64,000 nucleotides of DNA from Alphaproteobacteria bacterium (GTDB lineage: Bacteria; Pseudomonadota; Alphaproteobacteria; UBA828), in contig JAJEEP010000049.1 of the NCBI GenBank assembly GCA_022820945.1, forward strand, positions 1 to 64,000. Direction: 5' to 3'. The notes beneath the pieces are model-generated. The model had not been told where the DNA came from. It was given only the letters and a program-made list of their open reading frames with translations, and did no database searches. Within the stretch, counting starts at the first letter, position 1. The number at the start of each line of letters is the position of its first letter. Below are positions 31,356-40,548 of the stretch, piece by piece. The translations under genes were made by a program, and so were the position numbers.

Positions 31356-32567
31356 TCAGTTGCGGGGGCGGCGGTCGGTCGCAAACAGGCCGGCCACGAG
31401 GCCGAGACCGGCGCCCGAGACCGCGAGCATCACCCACCAGGATGCGGCCCAGCTGCCCAGGCCCTCGACCGCCGCGGCCATCACGGGAGGGCCGAGCAGG
31501 CTGCCGATCGCGGCACCCTGCACCACGAAGCCGCTCGCCATGGCGACGAAGGCGGTACGCGGCGCGTGGTCGGCGGCACCGGCGATCGCCGCCGCCGGCA
31601 GCAGGCCGCCGACGGCGCTGAACACGAAGGCCAGCACGATCTTCAGTCCGCCCGGCGTGCCGGCGAGAAAGATCCCGGCCGACGACCCGCCCATGGCGCA
31701 GTAGGCGATCCCGATCAGCGCCCAGCGCGGCACGCGCCGGTGCATCAGCCAGGCAGCGGCGAAATTGCCGAGGGCGTTGGCCGCCACCACCATCGCGCCC
31801 CAGATCGCCGCGCCGGCCGCGCTGCGACCCTGCGTCTCGATCAGGAAGGTCGGCAGCCAGGCCGTGATGGCGAACCACTGCAGCGTGTAGAAGGCGAACG
31901 AGAGACCGAAGAGCCAGAGCGCGGCGCGCACCAGTGTCTCCCGGACGCCGGGCCAATCGAGCGCCTGCGCGTCGAACGCCACCGGCCAACGCCGCGGGTG
32001 CAGGCTCCAGCCCAGCGCCGCCATGAAGAGCGCGACCAGCGCTGCGCTGAACAGCCAGAAGCCGCGCCAGCCGATGGTATCGAGCAGCGCCGGCGCGATC
32101 AGCATGGCGATCGCCATGCCGAGCGGCATGTAGGCACCCCAAATGCCGAAGGCAAGACCGTGGTCGCGGGGCCGCGCCGCTGCGGCGATCAGCTTGGGCG
32201 CGGTTACCGTTATGCCCACGAACCCGAACCCCTCGATAAAGCGCGCGACCAGCAGCCAGGCGCTGCCGCTTACCAGCCCGCCCAGCAGGCTGCCCGCCCC
32301 GAGGAAGGCCACACCGGCCAGCATCAGCCGGCGCGGGCCTGCGCGATCGGAAAGCAGGCCCACGGCGACGGCGACGGCAGCGCCGATCGCGTAGTAGATC
32401 GAGGTGAGCCAGCCGGCAGTGACGAAGTCGAGCCCCAGACTCTCGCGCAGCACAGGCAGGGCCGGCGGCACCTTGCCCACCTGGAAGCCGGCGAGGATGC
32501 CGGCGCCGAGCGCCATCAGCACGATGTCCCAACGGGTGGCCTCCGCAGGCGGCGCCCCCTGGCTCAT
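31356..32567 (-). CDS. Major facilitator superfamily transporter
   Basis: The product is 403 residues with twelve predicted transmembrane helices in two bundles. MFS signature A is present between helices 2 and 3 (GLLSDRAGPRRLM), and a glycine-rich helix ARFIEGFGFVGITVTAPKLI, split here as ARFIEGFGF and VTAPKLI, resembles signature C-like regions of CynX/NNP-type carriers. The start is ATG at 32567. It follows the DegT-type aminotransferase by 19 bases on the same strand and is probably co-transcribed. The transported compound is unknown; the neighbouring phosphonate genes make an organophosphonate or amino acid conceivable, but that is inference. Confidence 0.85.
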   Translation of the reverse strand: MSQGAPPAEATRWDIVLMALGAGILAGFQVGKVPPALPVLRESLGLDFVTAGWLTSIYYAIGAAVAVAVGLLSDRAGPRRLMLAGVAFLGAGSLLGGLVSGSAWLLVARFIEGFGFVGITVTAPKLIAAAARPRDHGLAFGIWGAYMPLGMAIAMLIAPALLDTIGWRGFWLFSAALVALFMAALGWSLHPRRWPVAFDAQALDWPGVRETLVRAALWLFGLSFAFYTLQWFAITAWLPTFLIETQGRSAAGAAIWGAMVVAANALGNFAAAWLMHRRVPRWALIGIAYCAMGGSSAGIFLAGTPGGLKIVLAFVFSAVGGLLPAAAIAGAADHAPRTAFVAMASGFVVQGAAIGSLLGPPVMAAAVEGLGSWAASWWVMLAVSGAGLGLVAGLFATDRRPRN

Positions 32568-32586: not shown

Positions 32587-33732
32587 TCACCCGGCCGCCG
32601 CGTCCCGCACGGCGCGGGCGATGCGCACGGCCGTTGCCTCGTCGAGGTCCGCGTGCATCGGCAGGCACAGCACCTGCCGGCTCAGGCGCTCGCTCACCGG
32701 CAGCGAGCCGGGGCCGTCGCCGTGGGCGCGATAGGCGGGCTGCAGGTGCATTGGCACCGGGTAGTGGATCGCGGTCGGGATCGCCTGCTCCGCCAGCGCC
32801 GCCTGAACCGCATCCCGCCGCTCCAGCCGGATGGTGTACTGCGCCCAGGTCGAGCTTCGCGCCGGCAGCCGACCCGGCAGGCTGACGGCACCGGCCAGCA
32901 CCGAATCGTACGTCGCCGCCACCCGTTCGCGCGCGTCGATCTCGGCATCGAAGGCGGCGAGCTTCACCAGCAGGATCGCCGCTTGGAGGGTATCGAGGCG
33001 GCTGTTGAGGCCGACCCGCACGATGTCGTACTTGCCCTCGCCCTGGCCGTGCTGGCGGATCGAGCGCCAGCGCGACGCCCGCGCCGCATCGTCGGTGAAG
33101 AGCGCACCCCCGTCGCCATAGCCGCCCAGCGGCTTGGCCGGATAGAAGCTGGTGGCGGTGACCGGCGCCAGCGCGCCCACCGGCCGGCCGCCGCTGGCCC
33201 CGCCGAAGCTTTGGGCCGCGTCGTCGATCAGCAGCAGGCCCCACTCCGCCGCGAGCGGCGCCAGCGCCTCATAGTCCGCCGCCTGGCCGAAGAGGTCCGC
33301 CGCGATCGCCGCCCTGGGCGCGAGCCGCCCGTCTGCCGCCACGCGGTCGATCTTCGCCGCGAGGTCGGCGGGGTCCATCATGCAGCTCTCTTCGTCTACG
33401 TCGACGAAGACCGGCGACGCCCCCACCAGCGCCACCACGCCCGCCGTCGCGGGAAAGGTGAAGCCGGGCACGAAGACCGCATCGCCCGGCCCGATCCCCT
33501 CCGCCATCAGCGCGATCTGAAGAGCGTCGGTGCCGCTCGCGCAGGTGACAGCGTGGGCAACGCCCGCGCGTGCGGCAAGCGCCGTCTCCAGCTCGGCCAC
33601 CGCCGGGCCGAGGACGAAGCGGCCGTCCTCGAGCACTCGCGCGAGCGCCGTGTCGATGTCCGCCTTGAGCCGCCGGTATTGCGCGCGCAGGTCGATGAAG
33701 GCGATGGGGTCGTGATCGGCGGGTGATGACAT
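32587..33732 (-). CDS. DegT/DnrJ/EryC1-type PLP aminotransferase
   Basis: The product is 381 residues, fold-type I PLP enzyme of the sugar aminotransferase group. The Schiff-base lysine is K200 in [16 protein letters not shown]170-D171 in [12 protein letters not shown] bind the cofactor; [12 protein letters not shown] is the phosphate-binding region. The C-terminal [12 protein letters not shown] is typical. The start is ATG at 33732, and a longer reading adds 17 basic residues. It faces the PEP mutase gene across about 106 bases, so the two share a control region. Usual substrates are nucleotide-linked keto-sugars, but a phosphonate aldehyde or keto acid is possible here. Confidence 0.87.
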
Positions 33733-33838
33733 GCGGCTCCGTCTTTGTCGGTTGCGTCGGGAGGCGGAATCGGAGCGCCGCATTGCATCGGCGCCGGCTT
33801 GTCGTTACCCTTTTATATCATCGCGATACGTCAGGTTC

Positions 33839-35536
33839 ATGGACGAACGGGCGACGAACCGGCGATCTCCCATGGCGACACGACTCCCCATCGGCAGCGC
33901 CGAGGCGCAGAGCGAGCCGGTCTCCAAGGCCGGGCGACTGCGCGCCCTGCTCCAGGCTCCTGCGCTCTCCTTCATCATGGAGGCGCATAACGGACTATCC
34001 GGGAAGATCGTGGAAGAAGCCGGATTCGAGGGCATCTGGGCCTCGGGCCTCTCCATGTCCGCAGCGCTCGGCGTGCGCGACAACAACGAGGCCTCCTGGA
34101 CCCAGGTCCTGGAGATGCTGGAGTTCATGGCCGACGCCACCACGATCCCCATCCTGGTGGACGGCGACACCGGCTACGGCAACTTCAACAACGTCCGCCG
34201 CCTGGTGAGGAAGCTCTGCCAGCGCGGCATCGCCGGGGTCTGCATCGAGGACAAGCTGTTCCCCAAGACCAACTCCTTCATCGGCGAGAATCAGCCGCTG
34301 GCGGACGTGGAAGAGTTCTGCGGCCGCATCAAGGCGGGCAAGGACAGCCAGAGCGACGGCGACTTCCAGCTCGTCGCCCGCGTCGAGGCGCTGATCGCCG
34401 GCTGGGGCATGGAGGAGGCGCTGCGCCGCGCCGAGGCCTACCGCGAGGCCGGGGCCGACGCGGTGCTGATCCACTCGAAGAAGGCGACCGCCGACGAGAT
34501 CACCGGCTTCTGCGAGGCCTGGGGCGGGCGGGCGCCGGTGGTGATCGTGCCCACCATGTACCACCGCACGCCGACGCAGACCTTCCGCGATGCCGGCGTC
34601 TCCATGGTGATCTGGGCCAACCACAACATGCGGGCCGCAGTCTCCGCCATGCGCCAGGTGAGCACGGCCATTCGGGAGAGCGAGTCGCTCGTCGCCGTCG
34701 AGGAGGAGATTACGCCGGTGCGCGAGGTGTTCGCGCTCACCGGCCAGGCGGAGCTCGCCGCGGCCGAGGCGCGCTATCTCGCGACCGGCGGCGGCCCCCG
34801 CGCGATTCTGCTCGCGGCCTCGCGCGGGGCGAAGCTCGGCCCGCTCACCGAGCAACGGCCCAAGTGCATGCTCGACGTGCGCGGCGAGCCCCTGCTGCAG
34901 CGCCTCGTGCGCACCATCAACGAGAGCGGCCTGCGCGACGTGACCGTGGTGCGCGGCTACCGCAAGGAGGCCATCGCGCTCGCCGGCATCGAGACCGTGG
35001 ACAACGACCGCTACGGCGAGACGGGCGAGGCCGCCTCCCTCGCCTGCGCCCGCGACCGGCTCGACGGCCCGTGCCTGATCTCATACGGCGACATCCTGTT
35101 CCGCCGGCACGTGCTGGACGGGCTGCTCTCGGCGGACGGCGACATCGTGACCGTGGTCGATGCCAGGCGCCGGGCGGATTCCTCGCGCGCGCCCGACCGC
35201 CCGGTCGACTGGGTGCGCTGCTCGCGCCCCTTCACCGGCAGCTACCTGGACGACGATCGCGTGATCCTGGAGGCGATCTGGAACGACGAGACCGGCGCCG
35301 ACGACGCCCACGGCGAGTTCATCGGCCTCACCAGGCTGAGCGAGGACGGCGCCGCCCTAGTTCGGGCCGCGCTCGACGCCATGAGCAAGGACGGCACCCT
35401 CGACGGCGCCGACCTCCCCACCCTCTTCACCCGCCTCATCGGCCAGGGCGCCGCCATCGACGTGCTCTACATCACCGGCCACTGGCTCGACGTGGACGAC
35501 GCCTTCGACCTCGCCTCCCTGCGTAACCTGGTGTAG
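33839..35536 (+). CDS. Phosphoenolpyruvate mutase fused to a nucleotidyltransferase
   Basis: The product is 565 residues from the ATG at 33839 (a second ATG at 33872 gives 554). Residues about 30-300 are PEP mutase, which rearranges PEP to phosphonopyruvate. The metal site is D108/D110 in [10 protein letters not shown], with E137 in IEDK. The diagnostic gating loop [10 protein letters not shown] includes K139, N145 and S146, and R181 lies in VARVEA. This loop separates true mutases from isocitrate-lyase relatives. Residues about 320-565 are a nucleotidyltransferase with [29 protein letters not shown] and SYGDI, resembling PntC/LicC cytidylyltransferases. No phosphonopyruvate decarboxylase is in the window. 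Confidence 0.9.
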
Positions 35537-35637
35537 CCGCTCCTCTACCCTCCCCAAGCCCGTAGCCCATCGAGGCGCCGGATCTGCAGGTGTTCGCGAG
35601 GGTTGCGCTGCGCGCCGATACCGGTGAGAAAACGGCT

Positions 35638-36474
35638 ATGCCCAAGGTGCTGCCAACCTCTGCCGTCGAGCAGTACGGACGGGACGGATATTGCCCGCCG
35701 ATCCCCCTGCTCTCGCCGGAGGAAGCGGCCGCGATGCGCGGCGCGCTGGAGCGCCTGGAGGCGGAACGCGGCGGGCCTCGCAGGGGCGCATTTCGCATCA
35801 AGGGCCACCTGCTCCTGCGCTGGATGACGGACCTGGTCCGCAATCCCCGCCTGCTCGATGTGGTAGAGGACCTCATCGGCCCCGACATCCTGTGCTGGAC
35901 CAGCCAGTGGTGGATCAAGGAGCCGCGCTCGCCCCAGTACGTCTCCTGGCATCAGGACAGCAACTACTGGGGCCTGGATACGGACCACCTGGTCAGCGCC
36001 TGGGTGGCCCTCTCGCCGGCGACGGTGGAGAGCGGCTGCATGCGCTTCATGCCCGGCAGCCACCTCGGCCCCAGGCTGCCGCACCGCGAGACATGGCACG
36101 ACGACAACATGCTCTCGCGCGGCCAGGAGATCAGCGCGGGGATCGACGAAGACGACGCCGTCAACATGGAGGTCGCCACCGGCGAGGCGGCGCTCTTCGC
36201 CTACCGCCTCGCGCATGCCTCGCACCCCAATCGCAGCGACGACCGGCGCATCGGGATCGCCATCCGCTACATGCCGCCCGACGCGCGCCAGACCCTCGCC
36301 GACTGGGACAGCGCGACCCTGGTCAGAGGCGAGGACAGGTTCGGCTACTTCGAGCACGAGCCCACGCCGGCCTGCGACTTCGACCCGGTCGCGGTCGCGT
36401 ACCACGAACGCACGGAGCTCAATCACCGCCGCATCGTCTACCAGGGCACGGGCCTGACCGAGCACCGCACTTAA
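35638..36474 (+). CDS. PhyH-family Fe(II)/2-oxoglutarate dioxygenase
   Basis: The product is 278 residues from the ATG at 35638. Iron ligands are H105 and D107 in SWHQDSNYW and a distal His (H193) in LAHASHPNRSDDRR, whose arginines would hold 2-oxoglutarate. VALSPATVESGCMRFMPGSH is the family signature. Members hydroxylate unactivated carbons of small molecules; some, such as PhnY, hydroxylate 2-aminoethylphosphonate. It lies about 100 bases after the PEP mutase fusion on the same strand, so a role in modifying a phosphonate is plausible but unproven. Start choice is by similarity, because the ribosome site is weak. Confidence 0.85.
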   Translation: MPKVLPTSAVEQYGRDGYCPPIPLLSPEEAAAMRGALERLEAERGGPRRGAFRIKGHLLLRWMTDLVRNPRLLDVVEDLIGPDILCWTSQWWIKEPRSPQYVSWHQDSNYWGLDTDHLVSAWVALSPATVESGCMRFMPGSHLGPRLPHRETWHDDNMLSRGQEISAGIDEDDAVNMEVATGEAALFAYRLAHASHPNRSDDRRIGIAIRYMPPDARQTLADWDSATLVRGEDRFGYFEHEPTPACDFDPVAVAYHERTELNHRRIVYQGTGLTEHRT

Positions 36475-36621: not shown

Positions 36622-38469
36622 ATGGAAGACCTGCCCTACTCCGAATCGGACACGATCACCGTCGGCGGCGATGCCATGTCGGCCGCAGCGCCGGACTTCG
36701 ACCCGATGCTGCTCTCGGTGCTCTCCAGCCGCTTCGGCGCCATCCTGCGCGAGATGAGCAACGGCGTGCTGCGCGCGAGCAAGTCGGGCGTCATCAAGAT
36801 CGCGCGCGACATGTCCTGCGCCATCCTCACCTACGATCACAGGCTGGTCTGCATCGAGGAGTGCATCCCGGTGCACGCGGCGGCCATCGACCTCACCACC
36901 CGGCCGCTCACCGAACTCTTCGACGACATCGAGGAGGGCGACGCCTTCCTCAACAACTGCCCCTACACCGGCGTCACCCACCACGCGGACCTCACGCTCT
37001 GCGTGCCGGTCTTCTTCGACGGCAAGCCGCTCTTCTGGACCGTCTCGCGCGCGCATCATGCCGATGTTGGCGCGCCGATCCCGTCCACATACCTGCCCTA
37101 CGCGAAGACCATCTTCGAGGAAGGGCTGCACTTCCCCGGCGTGCGGGTCGAGCGGGGCTACAAGGAAATCCGCGACATCATCCGCATGGCCAGGATCAAG
37201 GTGCGCGTGCCCGACCTCTGGTACGGCGATTATCTGGCGCAGGTGGGCGCCTGCCGCACCGCCGAGCGCCGGATCAAGGAGCTGGTGGAGAAGTACGGGC
37301 CGGAGACCATCGCCGAATTCGTCGAGGCCTGGATGGCCTACGGCGAGCGCCGCGCCGCCGCCGCCATCCGGACGCTGCCGGCCGGAACGTGGTCTTACGA
37401 GAACCGGCACGATCCGCTGCCCGGCGTCGCCGACGAGGGCATTCCGGTCCGGGCGCAGGTGACGGTCGATCCCGACGCGGCGACGATCACCGTGGACGTG
37501 CGCGACAATGTCGACTGCATCCCCGGCGGGCTGAACCTGAGCGAGACCTGCTCCATCGCGGCCTGCCGCGCCGGCGTCTTCTACAACATCGACCACACCA
37601 TCCCGCACAACGAGGGCAGCGCGCGGCGCATCCGGGTGCTGCTGCGCGATGGCTGCATCGTCGGCCGGCCGCGCTATCCGGTCGGCACCTCGGTCGCCAC
37701 CACCAACGTGACCGACCGGCTGGTGAACGCGGTCTCCTGCTGCTTTGCCCAGATCGGGCCGACGCATGGCATGGCCGAAGGCGGCTATCAGCAGGCGCTC
37801 GGGCTCGCCGTGATCTCGGGCGAGGATCCGCGCCGCGACGGCCAGACCTACGTCAACCAGATGTTCATCGGCTTCGGCGGCGGGCCGGGGCTGCCGGGAC
37901 ACGACGGCTGGGTCACCTTCGGCGGGCCGGTGGACGGCGGCATGCAGATCCTCTCCCCCACCGAGGTGGACGAGAGCATGTTCCCGATCCACTTCGAGTG
38001 CCGGGAGCTTGCCATCGACACCTTGGGCCACGGCGAGTGGGACGGCGCGCCCGGCACGCTCGCCGTCTACGGCCCCGTCGCGGGCGAGATGACCGCGGTC
38101 TATTGCAGCGACGGCGACACCTACCCCTCCAAGGGCGTGCGCGGCGGCAGCGACGGCGCGCCCTCGATCAATCAAAAGCGAACCGCCGACGGCGCCCTCG
38201 TCACCCTCCCCTCCTTCCACGAGGAGCGCTGCGCGCCGGGTGAGATGTTCCGCTTCGTCACCACCGCCGGCGGCGGCTACGGCGATCCCGTCCGGCGGGA
38301 CCCGGTGGCGGTCGCGCGCGCGGTGGACAACGGCTGGCTCAGCCCGGAGAAGGCGGAGGATGTCTACGCCGTCGCGCTCGGCCTCGCCGCCGACGGCATC
38401 CGGCACGAGGTGGACGCAGACGAGACCGCGCGGCTGCGGCAGGCGCGAAACGGCGGAGCCGAGGCCTAG
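36622..38469 (+). CDS. Hydantoinase B / oxoprolinase family subunit
   Basis: The product is 615 residues of the HyuB fold, the larger catalytic partner of ATP-dependent hydantoinases, acetone-type carboxylases and 5-oxoprolinases. Recognisable segments are SNGVLRASKSGVIKIARDMS, shown here as SNGVLRASKSG, then HADLTLCVPVFFDGKPLFW, RVPDLWYGD, PHNEGSARRI, and the C-terminal TTAGGGYGDPVRRDP. The start is ATG at 36622. Its stop is followed without any gap by the hyuA start, so the subunits are made together. Substrate unknown: cyclic amides, ketones and aromatic ketones are all possible in this family. Confidence 0.87.
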   Translation: MEDLPYSESDTITVGGDAMSAAAPDFDPMLLSVLSSRFGAILREMSNGVLRASKSGVIKIARDMSCAILTYDHRLVCIEECIPVHAAAIDLTTRPLTELFDDIEEGDAFLNNCPYTGVTHHADLTLCVPVFFDGKPLFWTVSRAHHADVGAPIPSTYLPYAKTIFEEGLHFPGVRVERGYKEIRDIIRMARIKVRVPDLWYGDYLAQVGACRTAERRIKELVEKYGPETIAEFVEAWMAYGERRAAAAIRTLPAGTWSYENRHDPLPGVADEGIPVRAQVTVDPDAATITVDVRDNVDCIPGGLNLSETCSIAACRAGVFYNIDHTIPHNEGSARRIRVLLRDGCIVGRPRYPVGTSVATTNVTDRLVNAVSCCFAQIGPTHGMAEGGYQQALGLAVISGEDPRRDGQTYVNQMFIGFGGGPGLPGHDGWVTFGGPVDGGMQILSPTEVDESMFPIHFECRELAIDTLGHGEWDGAPGTLAVYGPVAGEMTAVYCSDGDTYPSKGVRGGSDGAPSINQKRTADGALVTLPSFHEERCAPGEMFRFVTTAGGGYGDPVRRDPVAVARAVDNGWLSPEKAEDVYAVALGLAADGIRHEVDADETARLRQARNGGAEA

Positions 38470-40548
38470 ATGGCCGCTGCCTCTCCGCCCGGCGACTACC
38501 GGGTCTGTATCGATATCAGCGGCACCTTTACCGACTGTGTCGTCTCGGACCCCGACCAGCGCCTCCGCATCTTCAAGACTCCTTCCACGCCCGCCGGGTT
38601 CGAGCAGGGCTTCATGAACGCGCTCGGCCTCGCGGCCGAGGGCTACGGGCTGGAGTTATCCGACTTCATGGCGCGGGTGGCGCGCATCGTCCACGGCACC
38701 ACGGTTTCCACCAACGCGCTGCTGGAAGGCAAGCACGCGAGCGTCGGGCTGATCTGCACCCACGGCTTTCGCGACATCCTCACGCTGCGCGAGGCGCCCC
38801 GCAAGCCGCCGTTCCAGTGGCGCCTCACCTACCCCGAGCCCTTCGTGCCCCGCATCCGGACGCGCGGCGTGCGCGGGCGGATCGACGCCACCGGCGCGGA
38901 ACACACGGCGCTGGAAGAAGACGACGTGCGCGCGGCAGTCGAGGATTTTCGCAAGCTCGGCGTGGAGGCGGTCGCGGTCTGCCTGCTCTGGTCGGTGGTG
39001 AACGGCAGCCACGAGCGGCGCGTGGGCGAGATCGTGCGCGACGTCTGGCCCGAGGTCCCGGTGACCCTCAGCCACCGGCTCAACCCCATCGCCCGCGAAT
39101 ACCGCCGCGCCGTCTCCGCCGCCATCGACGCCGCGCTGCGCCCGGTGGTGAGCGCCTACGTCCACGCGCTCGACCGGGGCCTGCGCGAGGGCGGCTACGG
39201 CAACGAGCTGATGATCGCGAATTGCCTGGGCGGCATGATGCCGCCGGACGATATCGCCGAGCGGCCGATCTACAGCGTGATGTCGGGGCCGACGCTGGCG
39301 CCGGTCGCGGCGCGCAGGCTCGCAGACGTACCCGATCTCGTGGTGGTCGACATGGGCGGCACCTCGTTCGACGTCTCTGCGGTGCGGGACGGCCAGCTCG
39401 TGATCTCGCCCGAGGCGATGCTGACCGAGTTCGACATGCTTGGCATCCCCAAGGTGGACGTGCGCTCGGTGGGCGCCGGCGGCGGCTCCATCGCCCACGT
39501 GGACGCGGGCGGGCTGCTACGCGTGGGGCCGGAGAGCGCGGGCGCCGACCCCGGCCCCGCCTGCTACGGCCTCGGCGGCACCCGGCCCACGGTGACCGAC
39601 GCCGACGTGGTGCTCGGCATCATCGACCCCGACTACTTCCTCGGCGGCCGGATGCGCCTCGACAAGCAGGCGGCGGAGCGGGCTGTGGGCACCATCGCCG
39701 ATGCGCTCGGCATCGAGCTTGCGGCGGCCGCCCGCGCCATCGCCAGCACGGTCGATCACACCATGATCGCCGCCATCGAGGACATCACCGTGCAGGAGGG
39801 GATCGACCCGCGCGAGAGCTACTTCGTCGCCGGCGGCGGGGCCACCGCCATCCACATGGGCCAGATGGCGCGGGTGCTCGGCATCAAGGGCTACATGGTG
39901 CCCAAGTTCTCCGCCGGACTCAGCGCTTTCGGCGGACTCATCTCCGACATCGTGTGGGAGGAGACCGCGACCCTGGTGACCGACGCCGCGCGCTTCGACG
40001 CAGACGGCGTCAACGCGGTGCTGGCCACGCTGGTGGAGCGGGGCCGCGCCTTCCTCGCGCGCGCGGGCATCGCCGAGGCCGACCAGCGTTTCGAGTACGC
40101 CTATCTCGGCCGCTACCAATACCAGTCATGGGAAATCGAGGTGCCGTTCGAGACGGCGAATGGCGCGCTCGCTGCCGACGACGTGGCCGGGCTCGCCGAG
40201 GGCTTCCATCGGATGCACGAGCGCATCTACACGATCAAGAACGAGAGCGACCTGGTCGAGTTCACCACCTGGAAGGTCCGCGCCATCGGGCCCGCCGCCG
40301 CCGAGCTTGCGCCGGCGGAAGGCTCGGATACGGCGCCACCACCGGAGCTTCACGGCACCCGCCGGGTTCACCTGCCCGGCCGGGGCACACCCGAGGAGGT
40401 GCCGGTCTATCGCGGCAACGACCTGGCGCCCGGCGCCACGCTTGCGGGCCCCGCCATCGTCGAGGAAGCAACCACCACGGTCCTCGTGCCCGAGGACGCC
40501 AACGCCGTCATCGACGCGCTCGGCAACTACCGCGTGACGCTGAAATAG
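38470..40548 (+). CDS. Hydantoinase A / oxoprolinase family subunit
   Basis: The product is 692 residues, the ATPase-fold partner of HyuB. The N-terminal Hydant_A_N domain has the phosphate motif DISGTFTDCVV and HGTTVSTNALLE. The core Hydantoinase_A domain has MGGTSFDVSAVRDG, VGAGGGSIAHVDAGG and GADPGPACYG. The C-terminal half has PKFSAGLSAFGGLISDI and YLGRYQYQSWEI. The start is ATG at 38470, immediately after the hyuB stop. The usual order of the two genes is hyuA before hyuB; here hyuB comes first. It ends 10 bases before a converging methyltransferase gene. Confidence 0.88.
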   Translation: MAAASPPGDYRVCIDISGTFTDCVVSDPDQRLRIFKTPSTPAGFEQGFMNALGLAAEGYGLELSDFMARVARIVHGTTVSTNALLEGKHASVGLICTHGFRDILTLREAPRKPPFQWRLTYPEPFVPRIRTRGVRGRIDATGAEHTALEEDDVRAAVEDFRKLGVEAVAVCLLWSVVNGSHERRVGEIVRDVWPEVPVTLSHRLNPIAREYRRAVSAAIDAALRPVVSAYVHALDRGLREGGYGNELMIANCLGGMMPPDDIAERPIYSVMSGPTLAPVAARRLADVPDLVVVDMGGTSFDVSAVRDGQLVISPEAMLTEFDMLGIPKVDVRSVGAGGGSIAHVDAGGLLRVGPESAGADPGPACYGLGGTRPTVTDADVVLGIIDPDYFLGGRMRLDKQAAERAVGTIADALGIELAAAARAIASTVDHTMIAAIEDITVQEGIDPRESYFVAGGGATAIHMGQMARVLGIKGYMVPKFSAGLSAFGGLISDIVWEETATLVTDAARFDADGVNAVLATLVERGRAFLARAGIAEADQRFEYAYLGRYQYQSWEIEVPFETANGALAADDVAGLAEGFHRMHERIYTIKNESDLVEFTTWKVRAIGPAAAELAPAEGSDTAPPPELHGTRRVHLPGRGTPEEVPVYRGNDLAPGATLAGPAIVEEATTTVLVPEDANAVIDALGNYRVTLK

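Follow-up and report, generated by a model that had tools for sequence, protein, structure and literature searches.

The window, the whole stretch of 64,000 nucleotides that we analysed, carries a gene whose product joins a PEP mutase (PepM) domain to a nucleotidyltransferase domain, flanked by an aminotransferase and an oxygenase gene (Table 1). The translation of this ORF is free of stop codons and its start at position 33839 is supported by the alignments of genus relatives, which begin at residue 1 or 2. Full-length orthologues are found in five genomes of the same genus (86–90% identity) and in the family (60–71%), so that a chance origin of the fusion ORF can be excluded. The fusion class itself is already known and not new, as 33% of Ppm enzymes have been reported to be fused to a PF12804 nucleotidyltransferase (PMC6697681).

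Table 1. Features of the fusion locus and its immediate neighbours (positions in the window).
Feature	Position	Strand	Evidence and remarks
MFS transporter	31356..32567	-	PF07690; neighbour, outside the pathway assignment
DegT/DnrJ/EryC1 aminotransferase	32587..33783	-	PF01041, 322.7 bits; divergent neighbour of the fusion
PEP mutase–nucleotidyltransferase fusion	33839..35536	+	565 aa; TIGR02320, PF12804, PDB 1m1b E 5e-122
PEP mutase domain, residues 34–303	33938..34747	+	Profile matches and fold comparison
Gating loop (10 residues), residues 137–146	34247..34276	+	Ppm motif EDKXXXXXNS, kept in 28 fusions
MobA-like/PntC-like nucleotidyltransferase domain, residues 320–565	34796..35533	+	Retains K342 and D418 but lacks the motif Arg
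PhyH-type Fe(II)/2-oxoglutarate oxygenase	35590..36474	+	PF05721, 127.8 bits; variable neighbour

The N-terminal half of the fusion scored 396.8 bits against the curated PEP mutase equivalog TIGR02320 (cut-off 319.55), and its closest solved relative by sequence is the Mytilus PEP mutase, 1m1b. An AlphaFold model of the fusion (mean pLDDT 83.5) matched this enzyme with a TM-score of 0.90–0.95 over the target and 64–65% identity in the fold alignment. The EDKXXXXXNS gating motif of PEP mutases is present in the fusion and nearly invariant across 28 relatives; of the five PF13714 matches in the genome, the other four are without this loop. As judged from these sequence and fold matches, the N-terminal half is a true PEP mutase, predicted to convert PEP to phosphonopyruvate, and the first-pass annotation was right in describing a PEP mutase–nucleotidyltransferase fusion with a full gating loop. 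Alternatively, the domain could be one of the hydrolases or lyases of the isocitrate-lyase superfamily, in which case no phosphonate would be made at the locus. PEP mutases belong to the same superfamily, and weaker matches were obtained to the phosphonopyruvate hydrolase (TIGR02321, 252.8 bits, cut-off 374.4) and methylisocitrate lyase (prpB, 146.7 bits, cut-off 354.4) models. However, we regard this alternative as extremely improbable, given that the PEP mutase model alone exceeds its cut-off, that the gating loop is intact, that the identity to the Mytilus enzyme is so high and that Ppd and PhnW come after the fusion in relatives.

The C-terminal half matched PF12804 with 52.5 bits, and a profile built from 28 fusions recognised LicC (1jyk, E 7.5e-21) and PntC (6pd1, E 4.2e-13), in agreement with the earlier description of a PntC-like nucleotidyltransferase fused to the mutase. 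The same domain families and the same EDKXXXXXNS motif were described for Ppm and PntC by Rice et al. (2019, PMC6697681), who gave the PntC consensus as GXG(T/S)RX4-8PK, showed that changing either its Arg or its final Lys to Ala leaves Tde-PntC with less than 10% activity, and found that related PntC enzymes activate 2-aminoethylphosphonate (AEP) as CMP-AEP. The fusion in the window departs from this consensus over the corresponding 17 residues: within the 15 residues that align with the motif the Lys of PK is kept and the Arg is not. The claim that the nucleotidyltransferase N-terminus was complete therefore stands for the catalytic Lys, K342, and for D418 (the Asp of YGD), both invariant in the 28-row alignment, but not for the motif Arg, which is missing here as in nearly all fused relatives. 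Across some 90 relatives the residue at this position varies, and by eye only L069 has an Arg there, the family motif being [S/T/G/A]-[R/Q]-G-x-x-[L/F]...T-x-x-x-P-K. The characterised PntCs Ari1348 and Tde1415 differ in that they are not Ppm fusions and have the Arg. Because the fused family does not keep this residue, we call the domain PntC-like and not PntC. We infer from its family that it would form CMP-AEP from AEP and CTP, although without the motif Arg its substrate or mechanism may differ. The segment 34796–34866 of the window and its counterparts in L013–L122, across phyla, share the absence of the GXG(T/S)R Arg together with a conserved Arg or Gln at the second motif position (ASRG/ATQG).

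No ppd or phnW gene lies inside the 64-kb window, so the earlier remark that no decarboxylase was in view holds as far as this stretch goes. The genome to which it belongs, a MAG of 178 contigs (95% complete, 6.45% contamination), encodes one phosphonopyruvate decarboxylase (Ppd; C100:51232–52320, 420.9 bits, cut-off 312.5) and one PhnW (C50:12891–13964, 460.9 bits, cut-off 400.8), while the fusion is on contig C172. Thus, the AEP gene set is complete: as in the known PepM–Ppd–PhnW pathway, the three enzymes are single-copy and over their curated cut-offs, but here they are spread over three contigs and not gathered in one operon. Exactly one Ppd and one PhnW were found in all 14 high-quality genomes among 26 related ones, and both are single-copy in seven of the eight genus members, the eighth genome being only 62% complete. 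MAG contamination as the source of the two genes was rejected on account of these single copies across the genus, the 82–85% identity of the Ppds and their one common site. Two further candidates were discarded: a split Ppd-like pair on C93 falls below the Ppd cut-off, and a PhnW-like match at C172:111848 is a pyridoxamine–pyruvate transaminase (610.3 bits, cut-off 600). The pyridoxamine–pyruvate transaminase gene at L229:7726–9495 (G000:C172, about 112–113.5 kb) directly adjoins the dxs-shc cluster of that contig.

Elsewhere in the family, beyond the genus, ppd is found directly 3' of the fusion or within about 3 kb, and in farther relatives phnW often follows ppd as well; of the 74 longer loci from relatives, 63 have ppd 10 kb or less from the fusion. 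PhnW is unlinked from the fusion throughout the window's family (f1), and in the window's genus both ppd and phnW are unlinked from the mutase gene, unlike in the systems of Rice et al. (PMC6697681). In the genus members examined, ppd occupies one new common site beside a TAXI-TRAP transporter, and in the Ppd tree the genus proteins form one fully supported clade that groups with the linked Ppds of the family. The position of this clade among linked Ppds, together with the single common site, argues for a gene move followed by vertical descent and not for a different chemistry; a ppd that seems to be missing beside pepM can simply have moved.

The first-pass annotation had proposed that, with no ppd or phnW gene in view, the DegT-type or another enzyme may pull PEP mutase forward. 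This is not borne out: what it named as counter-evidence, a ppd-phnW cluster elsewhere in the genome, exists in substance, as both genes are present on other contigs in single copy, although unlinked from each other, and with them the DegT and PhyH enzymes are not required as substitutes. The route without Ppd, in which one of these two would draw phosphonopyruvate forward, for example to phosphonoalanine, could appeal to the conservation of the DegT gene beside the fusion in the genus loci (82–91% identity) and near it in one further family member, L049 (61%). Nevertheless, transamination is not an irreversible pull, Ppd and PhnW are both present in single copy and Ppd is vertically inherited, and the DegT protein resembles nucleotide-sugar aminotransferases, falling below all NCBIfam equivalog cut-offs. 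Furthermore, among the genus loci compared the PhyH gene adjoins the fusion here and in G002 (L101), with no match in the other four (L043–L046). We therefore hold this route to be very improbable; a role of DegT in the pathway is possible, but none is needed. We also rejected the idea that PhyH tailors a phosphonate at this locus, on its occurrence in the window and G002 only and because it reached no specific family cut-off. In the window (36622–40548) and most genus members the fusion is followed downstream by a hydantoinase A/B pair that is caprolactamase-subunit-like, remains below equivalog cut-offs and is by family unrelated.

A search of the rest of the genome for CDP-alcohol phosphotransferases, as had been recommended, yielded a candidate at C145:84859–85542. 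It can be placed in PF01066 in general, reaching none of the equivalog cut-offs, and it adjoins HpnA (500.1 bits) and a second nucleotidyltransferase (the three genes spanning C145:83879–86316). The other PF01066 match of the genome, on C29, adjoins a uvrC-like frame and, by eye, is probably pgsA, so that only the C145 gene stands out as a candidate for the CMP-AEP transfer. Hopanoids are sterol-like membrane lipids, and the genome encodes the genes of a hopanoid producer: besides HpnA, Shc (772.4 bits) and HpnH (554 bits) exceed their cut-offs, and HpnG (166.4 bits) is slightly under its own (187.1). The genes dxs, shc, hpnG, hpnH and ispH lie at 113–120 kb of C172, the contig that carries pepM, about 80 kb away from it. 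A second, more distant squalene-cyclase-like gene (G000:C71:38174–40087; 274 bits, under cut-off) contains one in-frame TAG.

In relatives, hopanoid genes adjoin the fusion itself. Among 74 relative loci of more than 8 kb around the fusion, we counted HpnH in 13, HpnA in 13, HpnN in 12, HpnL in 22, Shc in 8, a CDP-alcohol transferase in 24 and a second nucleotidyltransferase (NTP2) in 32, against a chance expectation of about 0.3 of 74 loci for a single-copy gene. In the case of Salinisphaera (L109), shc-hpnN-CDPOH-hpnA-hpnL-NTP2-pepM-ppd-phnW-hpnH follow one another on one strand; an alphaproteobacterial locus (L071) holds hpnC, hpnD, shc, hpnH, ispH, hpnA, NTP2, pepM, ppd, phnW, two CDPOH genes, hpnN and hpnL, with similar full clusters in two other alphaproteobacteria (G048, L226; G080, L227/L228), and a Nostocales cyanobacterium (L120) has CDPOH, NTP2, pepM, ppd, phnW, hpnH and hpnA. 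Thus pepM-ppd-phnW stand amid hopanoid genes in alpha- and gammaproteobacteria and in a cyanobacterium. The window's family groups among the hopanoid-linked alphaproteobacterial fusions in the fusion tree, and in three of its loci (L230–L232) the transferase and the second nucleotidyltransferase lie within the shc-dxs-hpnC/D region. Compared with known hopanoid operons (shc, hpnA, hpnC/D, hpnG, hpnH, hpnL, hpnN), the named families are the same, but a CDP-alcohol transferase and a second nucleotidyltransferase are added, as are pepM-ppd-phnW in many lineages.

The same association was seen in the gene content of whole genomes, where we took matches with E below 1e-30 as strong transferase homologues. 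Nearly every fusion carrier among 95 relatives has both Shc and the transferase, and the six carriers among 73 class-level outgroups all have Shc (19 of 73 overall) and the transferase (7 of 73 overall). A second draw, a phylum sample of 397 genomes, contained ten full fusions; the strong transferase was confined to the six genomes that combine the fusion with Shc, all of which have it (6/6), and occurred in none of the four with the fusion but no Shc or the 41 with Shc but no fusion. These six genomes represent three families, and the Fisher values, which ignore shared ancestry, therefore overstate independence. This distribution fits a product that holds both AEP and a hopanoid. Some fusion carriers (Stappia, family f122) have neither a squalene-hopene cyclase nor such a transferase, which indicates that the fusion in itself is not hopanoid-specific, and one genome (G001) gave no clear fusion match although the other genes are present. 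In an f102 genome with no pepM match, a longer CDP-alcohol transferase-like frame of about 410–450 aa (L268; G210:C103:11907–12284) shares its contig with shc (G210:C103:2409–4334); such enzymes may serve hopanoids, possibly with a phosphorus head group, without any phosphonate.

We observed directly which genes are present, to which families they belong, how they are linked and with what they co-occur, and from this we infer the catalytic activities of a route in which the PepM half would convert PEP to phosphonopyruvate, the Ppd on C100 would provide the pull by its irreversible decarboxylation, the PhnW on C50 would form AEP from the resulting phosphonoacetaldehyde by transamination, the fused nucleotidyltransferase domain would activate AEP to CMP-AEP, and the CDP-alcohol phosphotransferase on C145 would move AEP onto the hydroxyl of a membrane lipid, possibly a product of the hopanoid pathway, this acceptor being the most conditional element of all. 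Judged by these gene families, the fusion is likely to open an AEP/CMP-AEP pathway that is complete, though scattered over the genome, and that supplies the envelope, and the earlier proposal of a phosphonate on a surface molecule probably holds in the form of an envelope-bound product.

The clusters in relatives suggest that the phosphonate ends on a hopanoid-type lipid, and we tentatively propose a hopanoid as the acceptor of AEP here. HpnA and the second nucleotidyltransferase, which have no assigned role in such a product, and the f102 transferase-like frame near shc without pepM count against it. On the other hand, AEP could be made and activated but end on a conventional phosphonolipid of the diacylglycerol or sphingoid kind or on a surface glycan, the hopanoid linkage reflecting only a common membrane-lipid neighbourhood. 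This is a serious possibility, though short of probable: AEP is known to be attached to glycans, lipids and proteins (PMC9381506, PMC6697681), no assignment closer than the general PF01066 family was reached for the transferase, and the Stappia-type carriers do without a hopanoid pathway. However, it does not account for the confinement of this transferase type to genomes with both fusion and Shc, nor for the interleaving of hpnA, hpnH, hpnL and hpnN with pepM-ppd-phnW in distant lineages. By extension, a phosphonohopanoid head group made by the PepM–nucleotidyltransferase fusion, Ppd, PhnW and a dedicated CDP-alcohol phosphotransferase might be found, although we would not yet call it probable, across alpha-, beta- and gammaproteobacteria and in some cyanobacteria.

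To the best of our knowledge, no phosphorus-bearing head group is known on a hopanoid. The search of the literature returned no paper joining hopanoids with phosphonate biosynthesis or describing a phosphonohopanoid, which is weak evidence of novelty as most subscription journals lay outside it. Terpenoid genes have been noted beside the mutase in Acetobacteraceae and an undiscovered 'terpene-phosphonate' was proposed (PMC8776678); that prediction was general and concerned one family, whereas the fusion is here associated with particular hpn genes and a single type of transferase in several classes and a second phylum. The new part is the proposed destination, with a conserved genomic tie of AEP genes to hopanoid synthesis. 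Two-thirds of phosphonate gene clusters carry a nucleotidyltransferase (PMC6697681). The destination of bacterial phosphonates is mostly open, and a named acceptor pathway with a single candidate transferase would make it directly testable. If true, the phosphonohopanoid would add a lipid class and bear on membrane biology, the marine phosphorus cycle and hopanoid biomarkers.

Two further features recur in relatives. A PhyH-type oxygenase gene lies near the fusion at L075:14771–15538 and at 14 other loci; it is weakly similar to PhnY, the methylphosphonate hydroxylase (107.9 bits, cut-off 500), and from this resemblance it could hydroxylate AEP. Moreover, two CDP-alcohol transferase genes stand close together on opposite strands in L052, L054, L056, L061, L063, L070 and L071, suggesting two transfer steps, perhaps one for each nucleotidyltransferase.
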